64,000 bases of DNA from Gerris lacustris (taxonomy: Eukaryota > Arthropoda > Insecta > Hemiptera > Gerridae): positions 17,299,877 through 17,363,876 of the forward strand of contig OX578282.1 of assembly GCA_951217055.1 (NCBI GenBank). Direction: 5' to 3'. The notes below the pieces were generated by a model that had not been told where the DNA came from, ran no database searches, and was given only the letters and a program-made list of their open reading frames with translations. Below are positions 14,520-57,180 of the stretch, in pieces. Both the position numbers and the translations under genes were made by a program. Each line of letters begins with the position of its first letter. Within the stretch, counting starts at the first letter, position 1.

Positions 14520-16500
14520 GGTCTCCTCAGTCCAAATAATTGTTTACCACAGATATGTTTTCAGCTCTGATGTTCAGAGGGAATAAACGACATGAAAAAT
14601 GTGATGTTTTTAAATATCGTGCCAGAAAGTTAATCGGAGGTAGACTGATGTTCACTTGTATGCATTATAGTACTATACTTTGCAACCTGAATTTCTATGA
14701 TGCGAAGACTGATGTTCACTTGTATGCATTATAGTACTATACTTTGCAACCTGAATTTCTATGGTGCGAAGACTGATGTTCACTTGTATTCATTATAGTA
14801 CTATACTTTGCAACCCGAATTTCTATGATGCGAAGACTGATGTTCACTTGTATTCATTATAGTACTATACTTTGCAACCTGAATTTCTATGATGCAAAGT
14901 CTAATGTTCACTTGTATGCATTATAGTACTATACTTTGCAACCCGAATTTCTATGATGCGAAGACTGATGTTCACTTGTATTCATTATAGTACTATACTT
15001 TGCAACCTGAATTTCTATGGTGCGAAGACTGATGTTCACTTGTATTCATTATAGTACTATACTTTGCAACCCGAATTTCTATGATGCGAAGACTGATGTT
15101 CACTTGTATTCATTATAGTACTATACTTTGCAACCTGAATTTCTATGATGCAAAGTCTAATGTTCACTTGTATGCATTATAGTACTATACTTTGCAACCC
15201 GAATTTCTATGATGCGAAGACTGATGTTCACTTGTATTCATTATAGTACTATACTTTGCAACCTGAATTTCTAAGATGCGAAGACTGATGTTCACTTGTA
15301 TTCATTATAGTACTATACTTTGCAACCTGAATTTCTATGATGCGAAGACTGATGTTCACTTGTATTCATTATAGTACTATACTTTGCAACCTGAATTTCT
15401 ATGATGCGAAGACTGATGTTCACTTGTATTCATTATAGTACTATACTTTGCAACCTGAATTTCTATGATGCGAAGACTGATGTTCTTGTATTCATTATAG
15501 TACTATACTTTGCAACCTGAATTTCTATGATGCAAAGACTGAGGTTCACTTGTATTCATTATAGTACTATACTTTGCAACCTGAATTTCTATGATGCGAA
15601 TACTGATGTTCACTTGTATTCATTATAGTACTATACTTTGCAACCTGAATTTCTATGATGCGAAGACTGATGTTCACTTGTATTCATCTATTTACTATTT
15701 CGTTATAGTACTATACTTTGCAACCTGAATTTCTATGATGCGAAGACTGATGTTCACTTGTATTCATTAGAGTACTATACTTTGCAACCTGCATTTCTAT
15801 GATGCGAAGACTGATGTTCACTTGTATTCATCTATTTACTATTTCGTTATAGTACTATACTTTGCAACCTGAATTTCTATGAAGCAAAGACTGATGTTCA
15901 CTTGTATTCATTATAGTACTATACTTTGCAACCTGAATTTCTATGATGCGAAGACTGATGTTCACTTGTATTCATCTATTTACTATTTCGTTATAGTACT
16001 ATACTTTGCAACCTGAATTTCTATGATGCGAAGACTGATGTTCACTTGTATTCATTATAGTACTATACTTTGCAATCTGAATTTCTATGATGCGAAGACT
16101 GATGTTCACTTGTATTCGTTATAGTACTATACTTTGCAACCTGAATTTCTATGATGCGAAGACTGATGTTCACTTGTATTCATTATAGTACTATACTTTG
16201 CAACCTGAATTTCTATGAAGCAAAGACTGATGTTCACTTGTATTCATTGTATTACTATACTTTGCAACTTGAAGTTCTAAATTTTATATAAAATGATATC
16301 AGAGCTCCTAGCGGACCAAATAGTAATCAAAATGGATTAATGTTTCATAATTTCACACCTTAAGATCCATCTACCTTATCAATTAAATTAATGTATATTG
16401 GTTTTCTCCACTAAATGGAAAAGCATTGAAATGTCGATATGTGGATTCAATGCGCCATATCCATGATTCAATGGGTTCACATGAAATGGATAAAACTATT
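14520..16500 (+). repeat. Family F repeat carrying an internal satellite expansion
   Basis: The left flank (14540-14650, with TTCAGCTCTG and AATCGGAGGTAGACTG) and right flank (16280-16500, with GAGCTCCTAGCGGACCAAAT) match the family F copy at 25325-25745 in the same order. In that copy the middle is a single TTTTCACTTGTATTCATTG segment. Here it is about 25 tandem units. Confidence 0.75.
14641..16274 (+). repeat. 64-bp tandem satellite, about 25 units
   Basis: The unit contains GATGTTCACTTGTATTCATT, ATAGTACTATACTTTGCAAC and CTGAATTTCTATGATGCGAA. Three units (near 15686, 15828 and 15974) carry an extra segment beginning CTATTTACTATTTCG. A four-unit block recurs once with the same marker variants (CAAAGTCTAATG near 14894 and 15150), which is higher-order duplication. 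Confidence 0.9.
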
Positions 16501-20362: not shown

Positions 20363-20940
20363 AATATACCATAATTAAAATAAATTCGGTGAAACCTATA
20401 ATAAATTATATTGACAACCAATAAGCTCTGTCACTGGATAGTTGTCTTACATCTGTCACAATCAAGCCAATATTATACACTAAATTAGTATTATTACTAA
20501 TAAAAATTAAACTGTAGTTGCAATAGTCAATAAAAAGTTTAAATTAAAAAAAATCCTGTATATTGTTCGATATAATATGTTGACAACATAACAGCATAAA
20601 ACAAAGGGACCATATTCTTGGTATTATTCATCCTTGTATTATAAAATAAATCTAGCGTTTTATCCTTAATCTTTATGTAAGCTTATTTTATTTATAATCT
20701 AAATCCTCATCCTAAAGTTTGATTACAAAATATTGATAAAGTACGATATATCCGATAAGTTGGATAATGTAGTATATTAAGTTGACAAAATTGTGTCTCA
20801 ACACCTGTCACAATAATTGTCAACATATAAGTATTTACTACTGACAACACACATGTTGACACGTGTGTTGAAGTACGATACATTTGATAAATATGATAAA
20901 GTAGTATATTCAGGTGTGAACATGTGTTACAACTGAAAAC
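20363..20940. other. Spacer grading into satellite
   Basis: AT-rich. From about 20730 the sequence contains diverged versions of the downstream satellite words (TTGTCAACAT, ATGTTGACAC) in both orientations. Confidence 0.5.
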
Positions 20941-21635
20941 AAATGTCATCATGTACCTCTCCAACTAACAGCACAATTGTCGACATGTAACTCTCCAACT
21001 GATAACACAATTGTCAAGTGTGTCTCTACAACTGAAAACAATTGTCAACATGTATCTCTCTAACTGACAACACAATTGTCAACATGTATCTCTCCAACTG
21101 ACAACACAATTGTCAACATGTATCTCTCTAACTGACAACACAATTGTCAACATGTATCTCTCCAACTGACAACACAATTGTCAACATGTATCTCTCTAAC
21201 TGACAACACAATTGTCAAGTGTGTCTCTACAACTGAAAACAATTGTCAACATGTGTCTCTACAACTGAAAACAATTGTCAACATGTATCTCTCCAACTGA
21301 CAACACAATTGTCAACATGTATCTCTCCAACTGACAACACAATTGTCAACATGTATCTCTCTAACTGACAACACAATTGTCAAGTGTGTCTCTACAACTG
21401 AAAACAATTGTCAACATGTGTCTCTACAACTGAAAACAATTGTCAACATGTATCTCTCCAACTGACGACACAATTGTCAACATGTATCTCTCTAACTGAC
21501 AACACAATTGTCAACATGTATCTCTCCAACTGACAACACAATTGTCAACATGTATCTCTCCAACTGACAACACAATTGTCAACATGTATCTTTCCAACTG
21601 ACAACACAATTGTCAACATGTATCTTTCCAGACTT
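20941..21635 (+). repeat. 34-bp tandem satellite, about 20 units
   Basis: The main unit is CAACATGTATCTCTCCAACT plus GACAACACAATTGT. A shorter 31-bp variant (AGTGTGTCTCTACAACTGAA plus AACAATTGTC) is interspersed in pairs. The CAATTG core and the CAACATGT/ACAATTGT boundary make each unit partly palindromic. Non-coding. Confidence 0.9.
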
Positions 21636-29808: not shown

Positions 29809-30762
29809 TTACTCGTCCTCTACCTCAGGAAGGTCTCGGCCTGAAGGCGAGTAGACCTTGATGACGTCCTCGAGGAATGCACGCATAAGATCGTCACGAT
29901 CAGCCCGACTCCTTTGCCAGATATACTCTCCTAAGTACGAGTCGAACTGATCGGTGACGGTCCTACTGGGTAATTTCCTCTTAACGGCACTCCACGTTCC
30001 CTCAATAGAGTTCGTATGTACACCTGTCTCAGGGTCTTCAAAATGAAAAGAATGGTTTACCGTCCCGTGAGGGAAACCTTCTTCTTCAAGACAATCGTAA
30101 GACCTCCAACAGTCCGAGTAGATGGTGGTACCCGGCAGTACAGAGGCCTTAATTATCTCGAGGAGGGTACCTTTATCTCTTTTTTCAACGACCCTGAGAA
30201 AGCACTCATTCGACCCGCGCTGAACTCCACCGAACACCCACTTACCATCCACTCGCTTGCCTCTATTATACTTCCTCTTCCCGAACTTGCTCTCATCTAT
30301 TTCTACCACCTCTCCTGGTCCACCTATTTTCTTCCTATCATCCTTGACACATATATCGAAGCACACTTCCCTAAAAAAACTTCTCCAGTCACACACAGCA
30401 TGCTCAGAAACTCGGACCTGCTTAGCAATAAACTTCTGCGGTAGCTGGTTAACGAAATAGAAGGTCATCAATAATATTTCCATGATTGACACCTTACTCC
30501 TTTCGAACCAACTACCACGCCTGACCGACCTCTTAACATGGTGCTTCCCGGGATTCATGTACACTCGACACACCCATTCATACCTATCATTCAAATCGTG
30601 CCTTTTGCTCAAAGTCATCTTTTTCCCACATACCGGACACTCGTACTCTTTCGCAATCAAACCAACATCCATACAAAACTGTAACACTTTCAACATTCCC
30701 TCATCACTCTCACACTCGTTGAACAAACCCCACAGAAACCTCGCATCAATCGGAGCATTCAT
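29809..30762 (-). CDS. ISXO2-like (IS1595/Merlin superfamily) DDE transposase, intact
   Basis: Catalyses cut-and-paste movement of a Merlin-type DNA transposon. The 317-residue product is read from the ATG at 30762. The frame stays open upstream to 30990, but without an in-frame ATG and with non-conserved text. A zinc-ribbon-like segment starts with CPVCGKK (residues 42-48) and VCR near 64-66. The RNase-H-like core shows EIDESKFGKRKYNRGKR (first catalytic D156), KWVFGGVQR, IYSDCWRSY (second D217) and HTNSIEGTWSAVKRK (third acidic E254). Length and motif order fit complete ISXO2-like proteins of animals. The gene is markedly more GC-rich than its flanks and has no frameshifts, suggesting a young or still active insertion. 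No accessory gene lies beside it. Opposite-strand frames across it are shadows. Confidence 0.92.
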   Translation of the reverse strand: MNAPIDARFLWGLFNECESDEGMLKVLQFCMDVGLIAKEYECPVCGKKMTLSKRHDLNDRYEWVCRVYMNPGKHHVKRSVRRGSWFERSKVSIMEILLMTFYFVNQLPQKFIAKQVRVSEHAVCDWRSFFREVCFDICVKDDRKKIGGPGEVVEIDESKFGKRKYNRGKRVDGKWVFGGVQRGSNECFLRVVEKRDKGTLLEIIKASVLPGTTIYSDCWRSYDCLEEEGFPHGTVNHSFHFEDPETGVHTNSIEGTWSAVKRKLPSRTVTDQFDSYLGEYIWQRSRADRDDLMRAFLEDVIKVYSPSGRDLPEVEDE

Positions 30763-31739
30763 ACTAAGTGATATTAAGAGGAAACCCGGCACTCTCGAGG
30801 AAAAAATGTTTCGTGATGATACTACTACTGAACTGTAACTGTATAAGCGAACTGGAAACGACTTAAGAACTGGTAGGGATAAGGAATACGGAACGAGAAC
30901 GAAACGAACAGAAAAGGAATGGCTGGGCTGAGGGCGCGAATCGCGGATTAGGATTGTCGGGGGTAGGGGTGTCACACCCTTCACCCCCACTTAATTGCCA
31001 AAAAAGTAGGAGAAAATCAACCAAAAAAGGCGCCAACTGTCAAATTAATAGACGTTATAAAGGTCGAACTAGATTATATCGATTGTTAAAATGGCGTGAT
31101 ATCTAATTGTTTTCCTAGAATTTTGAGGGGCCGCGCCGCACTGCTTCGCGGTGCCGCTTATTTTTTGAAGAAAAAAAAACCCTCCTGCATATAGACCAGG
31201 CAGAGGTCCAAATCGAATAAAAAAATACATTTATATGCCCTTGAATTTTCTAGGGCCGTTCCGCACCGCTGCGTGATCGTGCATATCTCATATCGCTGCA
31301 TATCGAAGTACAAAAAGAATTGCTGAATTCAAATTTAGCGCCTGTTAAGAGGAGTAGTTGGCCCCGCCCACATATCTCGAAACTGTCACTTAAGCCCCAC
31401 CCACTGACAATCGACTCTCAACGCACCGTGTTTCTCAGTTTGACCGCACATTCTTGCCAAATTTCATTCGTCCAAACTCGATCGGACCACTTTTCGATTT
31501 TTTACGATTTGTTTTTTACGATTTTTTACGAAAAATGTTTGATGTCTCAACAAACTGAGTTCAAGATGGCGGAAAATGTTGATTTTCCGGGCGGCACAGC
31601 TAGAAGTAAGGACTGATTTTGCTGCCAAGTTTCAACTCTCTAGGTTAAATACCCTGGGCGCTACGATGATAACACACATACAGACGTCTTACTAAAAACC
31701 ACTCAGGAGGTCTTAAAAATACCTAAACGGATAATTCAG
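30763..31739. other. 5' flank of the transposase, no gene seen
   Basis: GC-richer patches occur here (GGGGCCGCGCCGCAC near 31129). It is probably the promoter-side end of the Merlin-like element followed by an older repeat (CAAGATGGCGG near 31562). One 98-codon plus-strand frame is not recognisable. Confidence 0.4.
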
Positions 31740-38745: not shown

Positions 38746-39090
38746 GTTGAATTTTAGTATCACTTTTTATTCATATAAAAGCAGCTTTTTGTAAAATTAA
38801 AGTTACAGCTCGTTTGTGAAATTAATTGTAACATCTATAAGTGCTCCACCATTAAAAATAATAAGAATTTAAAAAAACGAAAACAATAGAAAACTGGTTT
38901 TCTATTGCATTTCTTTTACAAATTGTTGTATACACTTAGTAGAGAGTGACCTTGTTTAAAATGACTTACATATGTAATTTTATCGAAGTCATGCATATTT
39001 ATGAGTTCAATTATTTGATTGCTGTGGGAATTTATAGTTCAGTTTACTTTTAGATTTTGGATGCGCAACATTCGAAATACTTATCAGTTA

Positions 39091-39100
39091 TATATAAAAG
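39091..39100 (+). promoter_or_regulatory. TATA box of the terpene synthase gene
   Basis: TATATAAAAG, a near-consensus TATA element, lies 99 bp upstream of the ATG at 39199. Transcription would start around 39120-39125 (CTTCTACAC), giving a leader of about 75 nt without any upstream ATG. TCAGTT, an arthropod-type initiator word, occurs at 39084-39089 but upstream of the TATA element. Confidence 0.6.
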
Positions 39101-39198
39101 TTTAAAGAAATTACTCTTCTACACGATAAATATTAGCTTATTAATTTTAAGTTTTTGTGTTTTTTTTAAACATATCTTTGAAAGCATCAGAAGAACAG

Positions 39199-40086
39199 AT
39201 GGCAGAAGCTAGAAATATGTGGAAGACAATGCGTTTAAATGTTTCGGGTTTAGAAGGGAATTTCAGCTGCGCACCTTACGTGGGAGAGGCGATTCGTCAA
39301 TCGAGAGATATCTGCAAGAAATTCGACGTGCCTTTTAAAAGTGAATTTATCGTTTTATGCGGACTGGTTTATGCACATCTACCTGAAAAAGAATTTTACG
39401 TAGCTTGTTACGTTCAGATGCTTACCGGGTTTTTTGATGATTTTTTTGACGATACGAGAAAAGATGTCAAAGATGAATTTGGGCTTCTCCATGAGTTGAT
39501 GAAATGTTTAGAGTCTGGTGTTTTGGAACACACGGACTCTAAAATCACTGCGATGACTCTCGACATAATTTATAGAATAGAGAATCAATGCTTGAGAGAT
39601 TTCGTTATCTATGGAATCACTGATTATCTAAAAACTGCGTCATCAAAGAACCGCATAAAAAAAATTATGAATCCTGATGAATACGTCAAAGTAAAACTCT
39701 TAGATATAGGTTGCCCTCATAGTTTGGCGCTGGCCTTCTTAGACAAAAAGCATTTTGAACCTTATATACAAATCCTGGATTCAGAATTCGGTCAGATCGC
39801 GAAGGATCTCGGCAGCACTAACGTGATGCTTATAAAAGACGTCGTATCACTGAAAATGGACAAAAGGAAAGGTTCGAAATACAACATTATATTTTCTCTT
39901 ATGAAGTACTAAAATATAAACGAACAACAGGCCATCCGACAAGCCTTAGAACTGGCAAAAGACGCTTACGATCAATTGACAAATTTGACGACATCTGATG
40001 AATTAAGACACGAAGTAATTCAGAGACTCGTCCAGATCTGTCGAGGATATAATTTCTGGGGTTTAACCTCTCCAAGGTATTATTAA
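39199..40086 (+). pseudogene. Class I terpene synthase, trichodiene-synthase-like, split by one in-frame stop
   Basis: Class I terpene synthases ionise a prenyl diphosphate (C10-C20) with three Mg ions and cyclise it. The frame spans 295 codons. LTGFFDDFFDD holds the aspartate-rich motif (D80, D81, D84). EYVKVKLLDIG (161-171) is the region of the diphosphate-sensor Arg, here Lys. IKDVVSLKMD (212-221), followed by GSKYNI, is an NSE-type motif with Lys213 for the usual Asn/Asp and Asp221 for Glu. FWGLTSPRYY (286-295) is the C-terminal RY motif. Codon 238 is TAA (39910-39912). The next 57 codons continue in the same frame with homologous text (NINEQQAIRQALELAKDAYD), then a true TAA at 40084. No intron is apparent. 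ATG 39199 is the first Met after an upstream in-frame stop at 39148. The whole is more GC-rich than its flanks. The best family match by layout is trichodiene-synthase-like cyclases (fungal TRI5 type, with relatives reported in some animals). It is either a young pseudogene, a null allele or a base-call error. The family call is firm; the product is unknown. Confidence 0.85.
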
Positions 40087-40299
40087 GAACAAAAATTTAT
40101 AAAAGTAATTTCCTTGGGTTACGGTAAAATAGAAGTTAATATGAATCTTTATTTTAGAAAGTAAAAATATGATAATGACTACATTTACCTATTATTGTTC
40201 AAGGATTTGGTAATGACACGCCCAGATAAGAAATTACACCTAATTTTCTTTTTCTTTTAAAATTGCCATTATCAATTGTATTATTTAAAATGAGTTAAT

Positions 40300-40305: not shown

Positions 40306-40621
40306 AAAAATATGTTATTTTAATTGAATTTTCCATTTTTCTGTTTTTCAACACCTATGTCAAATAATATCCTGAGTTTGTTAATCTGTCAGTCAATAAC
40401 GAACCTGATCTCCGTTAGTACTTTACTCTCATCAGTAGAATTTAATATTGTGATGCTTAACCTGAAATGATGTAAAATTTGAACGTACAGAGTGATTTGG
40501 GAAAGGAAATGTTTCAGTTTGTGAGGGACAGAAAATAAAGAGAGAGGGGATAGACAAACAACATAATTTACTTGCGTACTGGATGGATTTGATCTATTGC
40601 AACTTACTCGAACAGGGAACG

Positions 40622-40896
40622 ACTTGGATAAACCTATGATGTCACAACAGTTTACGCGAGACAAGTCTGACTTAAGACTTGGATAAACCTATGATGTCAC
40701 AACAGTTTACGCGAGACAAGTCTGACTTAAGACTTGGATAAACCTATGATGTCACAACAGTTTACGCGAGACAAGTCTGACTTAAGACTTGGATAAACCT
40801 ATGATGTCACAACAGTTTACGCGAGACAAGTCTGACTTAAGACTTGGATAAACCTATGATGTCACAACAGTTTACGCGAGACAAGTCTGACTTAAT
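40622..40896 (+). repeat. 55-bp tandem array, five perfect units
   Basis: The unit starts ACTTGGATAAACCTATGATG and continues TCACAACAGTTTACGCGAGA and CAAGTCTGACTTAAG. Five units follow one another without visible mismatch until the last three bases. This implies very recent expansion. It lies about 0.5 kb downstream of the terpene synthase. Confidence 0.95.
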
Positions 40897-51762: not shown

Positions 51763-52000
51763 AGTCAGCCAATTAGTGTGGCACATAGCTTTATCTTGTT
51801 CTATTATTGGATGAATCGTCACACGGGAATTAAAGGAGGGTAGAAAGTTTACCTGCTACAATTCTCAGAGGGGGTCCTACTTATTTTTATTCATTAATAA
51901 ATGTGCAAAGAAAGTTAACATGAGACTATGTGTGGGCTACTTTTGACAAACAATCTAAATACTTTTGGAAAACTACTTTTAAATATGTTGAAGTTACTTA

Positions 52001-52635
52001 AAAAAAAATCGGTCCGAGACAACTCAGACAAACTTTCTCATATATGAGTTTATAATTACTTAGCCCAGTGTTTCCATTTATTAGTTTTCAAATGTACATT
52101 TAAATATTATTGAACATTTCATCAAAACTTATCATAAAAATAACTTCTCCTGGTCGGGGAATCGAACCCAGGCTCTCTCCGTCCGCGTTTTAAGCTAATA
52201 TCTCAGGAACTAGATTTTTCCCGGGAAAACGGCTTATATCGTTGGATTCGTATTCAAATGGACTACATTTTAGAATTTTTTAATCAAAATCGTCGGAACC
52301 GTTTTCGAGAAATAATTTTTTTTCATGTTTTTTCAGAGTTTTTGGGGGGTAGCGCCCCCAAATTTAGAGCTAAAATTCATTTCTCGATTTCGCCTCGGGG
52401 TATGATTTTTCTGAACATGTATGCCAAATTTCGTCAAAATCGGCCCAGTAGTTTGGGCTCCAGGTGTCTGCACAGACGACAGACAGACGACAGACGACAG
52501 ACGACAGACAGACATTTTTTAAAAACCACTTTTTTGGACTCAGGGGACCTCAAAACGTGTAAATCCATCAAAATCTCAAAATCGAATTTTCGCGCCATCA
52601 CAATACTTTCTCTTTATATGAGAAAGTAAAAAAGG
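52001..52635 (-). mobile_element. Family B, complete copy with tRNA-like segment
   Basis: It is bounded by AACTTTCTCATAT near 52032 and ATATGAGAAAGT at 52617-52628, inverted. On the minus strand the body leads to TAGCTTAAAACGCGGACGGA, GAGAGCCTGGGTTCGATTCC and CCGACCAGGA, a pol III B box (complement of 52158-52168) with an acceptor-like end. TTCCTGAG upstream can pair partly with ACCAGGA. It looks like a composite SINE or a MITE that captured a tRNA. The 123-codon plus-strand frame is repeat-derived. Confidence 0.75.
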
Positions 52636-56636: not shown

Positions 56637-56690
56637 CAGAGAGAGAGAGAGAGAGAGAGAGAAACAGACAGAGAGAGAAATAGAGAGAGC
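56500..56690 (+). repeat. GA-rich microsatellite
   Basis: A18 followed by (GA)n interrupted by ACAGACAG and GGGAGG. The Leu/Ser-rich minus-strand frames here are artefacts. Confidence 0.9.
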
Positions 56691-57156
56691 TTTGCCACCT
56701 AACCTCAAGAATGAGATAGAGAGAGCTTTGCCACCTAACCTCAAGAATGAGATAGAGAGAGCTTTGCCACCTAACCTCAAGAATGAGATAGAGAGAGCTT
56801 TGCCACCTAACCTCAAGAATGAGATAGAGAGAGCTTTGCCACCTAACCTCAAGAATGAGATAGAGAGAGCTTTGCCACCTAACCTTAAGAATGAGATAGA
56901 GAGAGCTTTGCCACCTAACCTCAAGAATGAGATAGAGAGAGCTTTGCCACCTAACCTCAAGAATGAGATAGAGAGAGCTTTGCCACCTAACCTCAAGAAT
57001 GAGATAGAGAGAGCTTTGCCACCTAACCTCAAGAATGAGATAGAGAGAGCTTTGCCACCTAACCTCAAGAATGAGATAGAGAGAACTTTGCCACCTAACC
57101 TCAAGAATGAGATAGAGAGAACTTTGCCACCTAACCTCAAGAATGAGATAGAGAGA
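56691..57156 (+). repeat. 36-bp tandem satellite, 13 units
   Basis: The unit is GAGATAGAGAGAGCTTTGCC plus ACCTAACCTCAAGAAT. Because 36 is divisible by three and the unit lacks stops, both strands stay open: PPNLKNEIERAL repeats on plus, LSISFLRLGGKA repeats on minus. Units are nearly identical (GCTTTG to ACTTTG in two). No promoter, start context or known product supports translation. Confidence 0.92.
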
Positions 57157-57180
57157 GCTTTTTCACCAAAAACAAGCACG

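Follow-up and report, generated by a model that had tools for sequence, protein, structure and literature searches.

The interrupted frame and its motifs

The window, that is, the whole stretch of 64,000 bases analyzed here, corresponds to C7:17299877-17363876 in a genome of 937 Mb assembled into 69 contigs, and has a GC content of 31.8%. In extracts from the literature, a chromosome-level assembly of G. lacustris is reported (PMC13359435), and the genome of G. buenoi is given a size of ~1.0 Gb and a GC content of 32.46% (PMC6249893). Translation of positions 39199-40083 yields 237 amino acids, a TAA codon, 57 further amino acids ending with SPRYY, and then a stop codon. The first part of this frame (39199..39909, on the forward strand, like all the features of the gene given below) comprises 237 codons and begins at family residue 10, which is the first in-frame ATG of the focal copy; an open run of this length is expected ~0.0004 times per random window of equal composition. 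The TAA occupies codon 238 (39910..39912, family position 247), and the same frame resumes behind it, as the preliminary description had claimed. The 57 post-stop codons (39913..40083) are homologous to those of an intact copy, based on the translation, the alignment and the model of the intact copy. At 39172..39174, where the codon alignment places the start codon of three sister copies (family residue 1), no ATG is present in the focal copy. A TATA-like stretch, the function of which is putative, was read in the sequence upstream of the frame at 39090..39099, in a flank that was aligned among four copies. The duplicated unit detected by blastn (38751..40153) consists of the gene plus its 5' and 3' flanks and is common, wholly or partly, to the sister copies on contig C7. 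Five perfect head-to-tail units of 55 bases are located shortly downstream of the gene (window 40621-40895).

Class I terpene synthases carry an aspartate-rich motif DDxxD/E, an NSE triad NDxxSxxxE and a diphosphate-sensing Arg. The translation and the family alignment show that the focal copy has retained the aspartate-rich metal-binding motif, in the form DDFFDD (39436..39453), as well as the C-terminal Arg-Tyr pair (40075..40080). The NSE-type motif (39835..39861) is degenerate in the 10-copy family alignment: in comparison with NDxxSxxxE, a Lys stands at the N position, the Ser is retained, and an Asp stands at the E position. The class I motifs previously listed from the aspartate-rich motif to the Arg-Tyr pair are thus preserved at both ends of the series but not in the NSE triad. 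Likewise, the TAA is the sole in-frame stop, as had been stated, but not the only lesion, since the ATG of the sister copies is missing and the Lys occupies the N position of the triad. Owing to the TAA, the C-terminal helices (the last two long ones in the model of the intact copy) and the Arg-Tyr pair lie outside the focal frame, from which the family start codon is also missing.

The first half of the frame matches the Pfam family PF19086 (Terpene_syn_C_2; E 4e-10, 40.2 bits, cut-off 23.7), and a score of 57.7 bits was obtained in the genome-wide profile search when the stop was read through. The second half taken alone gave no Pfam family above the cut-off, so that the profile check proposed for both halves was positive for the first half only; in NCBIfam, the second half gave a weak match with cadinene synthase (E 0.097). 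Its homology was accepted because the intact relative aligns straight across the focal stop (304 residues, 73% identity), and the terpene synthase homology previously proposed was therefore upheld. Since this relative consists of one uninterrupted frame of 304 codons running through that point, introns removing the stop, which had been suggested as a possible refutation, are very unlikely. In structure searches with two models, those of the intact C7 copy and of a C4 copy, the 50 matches listed for each were bacterial, fungal or viral terpene synthases. The focal gene falls within the class I terpene synthase fold. The copies tested against Pfam matched PF19086, along with PF03936 in some cases, while NCBIfam gave weak matches with mixed bacterial terpene cyclase names among the seven open copies, though nothing for the one on C7. 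When the first half and the seven open frames were used as queries against protein databases, no match was listed at E <=0.01; the method requires shared 5-residue words, and distant mite or gnat genes could escape it.

Distribution, organization and motifs of the gene family

Searching the genome at the DNA level identified four copies, all of which are on C7. A protein search with the intact copy added seven more distant copies showing 27-28% identity (five on C4 and one each on C8 and C10), together with a match on C5 at chance level (E 0.2), and the whole-genome PF19086 search recovered the same 11 loci, all above the cut-off. Seven of these 11 loci are open single frames (L003, L009, L010, L011, L013, L014, and L015). 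The four broken ones are the focal copy and L012, which have a TAA in different places, L002, which has a TAG, and L004, which has two indels. In the C7 sister group, three of the four copies are broken, in differing ways, and one (L003) is intact, while six of the seven copies located elsewhere are open. The picture of a lone gene with one fault, as first described, was not supported. All seven open copies form one frame of 297-308 codons, with no sign of an intron.

The copies are partly grouped: three of them, along with a fragment, lie within ~37 kb on C4, two others within 17 kb on the same contig, and a C7 pair within 23 kb. Near 50.366 Mb on C4 (from the end of L020 to L021:370) there is a twelfth terpene synthase sequence, a broken fragment that does not figure in the genome-search listings. 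By blastn, the window and the copy at 26.02 Mb on C7 show 76% identity over 1456 columns. A retrocopy origin was ruled out, since the 5' and 3' flanks were duplicated along with the gene; judging from these alignments, the C7 copies arose by DNA-level duplication. Contamination was ruled out as well, since the loci are distributed among four contigs, which measure 43 to 85 Mb, and the C4 cluster is adjoined by tetraspanin and reverse transcriptase frames. The tetraspanin frame (L024:5541-6254 on C4; PF00335, E 2e-49) is intronless and lies ~9 kb away from this cluster.

The catalytic motifs were compared in ten aligned sequences (L004 was left out). The N position of the NSE triad is occupied by Lys in the focal copy, Ser in two C7 sisters, and Asn in all seven non-C7 copies; at the third position of the triad, nine of the ten copies have Asp and the one on C10 has Asn. 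The six open non-C7 copies all have the Arg-Tyr pair and the Asn and Ser of the triad, and their third residue is Asp in five cases, Asn in one (C10), and Glu in none. Variants of the aspartate-rich motif were observed in C4_65.71, where the second Asp is replaced by Asn, and in the C8 copy (DDCLDN). The residue aligned with the diphosphate-sensing position, as placed by the sequence alignment alone, is Arg in the seven non-C7 copies and Lys in the three C7 copies included. In L003 (C7:26045172-26046083), residue 175 is a Lys at the diphosphate-sensing Arg, and at residues 222-230 SxxxSxxxD replaces NxxxSxxxE. This copy may possibly encode an altered enzyme kept by selection, given its dN/dS of 0.30 versus the sister copy C7b. 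Since Ser stands for Asn, Asp for Glu, and Lys at the diphosphate-sensing Arg, the activity of the aligned C7 copies, including the intact one, seems doubtful.

Coding constraint and probable loss of the focal copy

By the Nei-Gojobori method, dN/dS was 0.363 between the focal and intact copies (dS 0.396), 0.333 between the focal copy and C7b, and 0.301 between C7b and the intact copy (dS 0.266); the comparison of the intact copy with the frameshifted sister gave a higher value (0.50, dS 0.083). Downstream of the stop, the values ranged from 0.26 to 0.33 across the three focal comparisons, each involving few sites. The changes private to the focal copy comprise 47.5 nonsynonymous versus 31.5 synonymous ones, as compared with a neutral ratio of ~3 to 1 (p 0.004). 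At the level of these substitutions, the family shows signs of purifying selection. Relaxation on the focal branch with respect to the sisters was not significant (48:31 vs 28:28, p 0.22), and the timing of the loss is therefore loose.

No indel separates the focal from the intact copy in 918 aligned coding bases, in line with the previous statement that no frameshift is needed. Two gap openings were obtained between the focal copy and C7b within the bounds used, and the multiple alignment is gap-free in frame for the focal copy, the intact copy and C7b. Neutral evolution is expected to yield ~43 stops per unit of divergence; with only one present, the divergence since the loss may be put at ~0.02 substitutions per site, with a wide error, which suggests a recent loss. 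The recent loss previously proposed gains support from the constraint still visible and the absence of indels.

The focal copy is very probably a recently inactivated duplicate in an intronless family of canonical, that is, microbe-type, class I terpene synthases of the water strider. This reading is based on the homology, the fold predicted for two intact copies, the existence of sister and distant copies, the signs of purifying selection, and the differing lesions. The focal copy would yield no active enzyme, since its product would end before the last two long helices and the Arg-Tyr pair, and a Lys stands at an expected metal ligand. The open copies presumably bind Mg2+ through the aspartate-rich and NxxxSxxxD motifs, and might turn prenyl diphosphates from the host mevalonate pathway into mono-, sesqui- or diterpenes.

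There is a small chance that the TAA reflects a base-call or assembly error, or marks a null allele carried by the sequenced individual, in an otherwise living gene. The single in-frame stop, the lack of frame indels with respect to the intact copy, and the constraint visible both up to and past the stop are what would be expected in this case; but the start codon of the sisters is also missing in the focal copy, a Lys occupies a metal-ligand position, and three of the four C7 copies, the focal one included, are broken, which indicates that loss is common in the C7 clade. Recoding or readthrough of the stop, or a truncated but functional protein of ~237 residues, is highly improbable. The codons past the stop are still conserved, but at a neutral divergence of ~0.02 substitutions per site they would look conserved anyway. 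The other stop-bearing C7 sister has a different stop at a different site and another sister carries a frameshift, as would result from decay rather than from a programmed site; the recoding option put forward in the preliminary description fares poorly in view of these unrelated lesions lying elsewhere. A truncated protein would lack the two final long helices seen in the model as well as the Arg-Tyr pair. With the focal copy taken as a recently inactivated duplicate, its breakage amounts to ordinary duplicate decay and could usefully serve to time gene birth and death within the family.

Origin of the family and other elements of the genome

Terpene synthases of the isoprenyl diphosphate synthase type occur in stink bugs, flea beetles and termites. 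These insect genes are also thought to make terpenes but belong to a different family, characterized by PF00348, which is unmatched here at the thresholds used. That the water strider family is a derivative of an insect isoprenyl diphosphate synthase, and was not gained horizontally, is barely credible: such enzymes are known in Hemiptera, according to an extract of PMC13143122, but the Pfam and structural matches described above point to terpene synthases of the microbial type, and PF00348 was absent from the focal first half (E <=10), the intact C7 copy (E <=1) and the six other open copies (E <=0.01), so that a prenyltransferase-type origin was not supported at the thresholds used.

The family would rather have entered the genome by horizontal transfer, after which DNA duplication multiplied it, in part as local clusters. 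Canonical terpene synthases not derived from prenyltransferases have reportedly been found in arthropod nuclear genomes by Chen et al. (PNAS, 2024, doi 10.1073/pnas.2413007121). Compared by description only, the genes of the water strider are likewise canonical and nuclear and form a small multi-copy family. In a paper citing that work, the insect example is the fungus gnat Bradysia, in contrast with the present host, a hemipteran water strider; the preliminary description had called the copy arthropod-like, and its host is indeed an insect. According to extracts from the literature, classical terpene synthases are a rare, horizontally gained case in insects, which otherwise do not have them (PMC13143122); the fungus gnat has five such genes, apparently acquired from mites (PMC12051294); and those of trombidid mites are multi-copy, of the bacterial/fungal type, with <=30% identity to their nearest microbial relatives, and are thought to be laterally acquired (PMC6275457). 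By description only, the latter resemble the present family in being multi-copy and of microbial type, but their hosts are mites, not insects. No water strider terpene synthase was found in the open-licence PubMed Central literature, where the one paper containing both terms is a plant study, judging by its title and the beginning of its abstract, and where no paper was found that brings together terpene synthase, Heteroptera and horizontal gene transfer. In the genome paper on G. buenoi, no word of the main text begins with "terpene" (PMC6249893).

Among the PDB sequences, the best match of the intact C7 copy was the terpene synthase of Orpheovirus IHUMI-LCC2 (8jw3; 39.9 bits, next 20.2), which also ranked first with the seven-copy profile (64.4 bits, next 49.5) and, weakly in one case, with two of three other open copies run singly; the single match in BFVD at E <=0.001 was the same protein. 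It shows ~22% identity and, in the printed alignment with the seven-copy profile, also has an Asp at the third NSE position. A giant-virus origin is a tentative lead provided by this PDB ranking. It was unsupported by three other searches, none of which favors 8jw3: L015 matched a fungal synthase best and 8jw3 was missing at E <=0.1; with the focal first half, 8jw3 came second behind pentalenene synthase, both weakly; and in the structure searches, 8jw3 was level with bacterial enzymes when the C7 model was used and was not among the 50 matches listed for the C4 model. Scans of viral and of prokaryote contigs gave pattern matches and no relative, and the two papers retrieved for 8JW3 were unrelated. 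A broader scenario, in which water striders acquired their canonical terpene synthases by a route separate from that of fungus gnats, through a giant virus or its amoebal host, have expanded them to at least 11 loci, and are losing copy by copy a C7 branch which had evolved an unusual metal triad (SxxxSxxxD) under selection, is a speculative one that we regard as unlikely in its entirety.

The finding worth following is the canonical, multi-copy, mostly open family in a hemipteran. With a family of this kind in a water strider, a second insect order would join the list, and the number and source of the transfers would become testable; its members are also candidate enzymes for gerrid scent or signaling chemistry.

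Several other elements were observed. On the reverse strand of the window, an open frame of 393 codons (29812-30990) carries an ISXO2/IS1595-type transposase domain (PF12762, E 3e-20) and presumably resembles a Merlin-type DNA transposon; the inverted arms around it are weak at most. An interspersed repeat (window 51999-52633) matches up to 13 times in a 200-kb sample of other sequence from C4, C7, C8, and C10, with which ~25% of the window is shared. Long minisatellite arrays occur at 14642-16279, 20930-21630, and 56680-57161, their repeat units measuring 64, 34, and 36 bases, respectively. Contig C69 carries a mitochondrial-type COX1 and shows the order I-Q-M-nd2-W-C-Y-cox1-L2-cox2-K-D-(atp8-atp6), where the tRNAs were identified with aragorn and the protein genes by eye. 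Translated with code 5, this COX1 shows full-length identity of 100% with Gerris gibbifer and 99% with Aquarius among the 120 of 7999 matches listed, in keeping with a gerrid host, most likely of the genus Gerris. COX1 was found both at C69:3452-4792 and inside C1 (C1:5210962-5212302), with equal scores and equal numbers of TGA codons (12), and the C1 sequence is either a nuclear copy of very recent origin or an artefact of the assembly.
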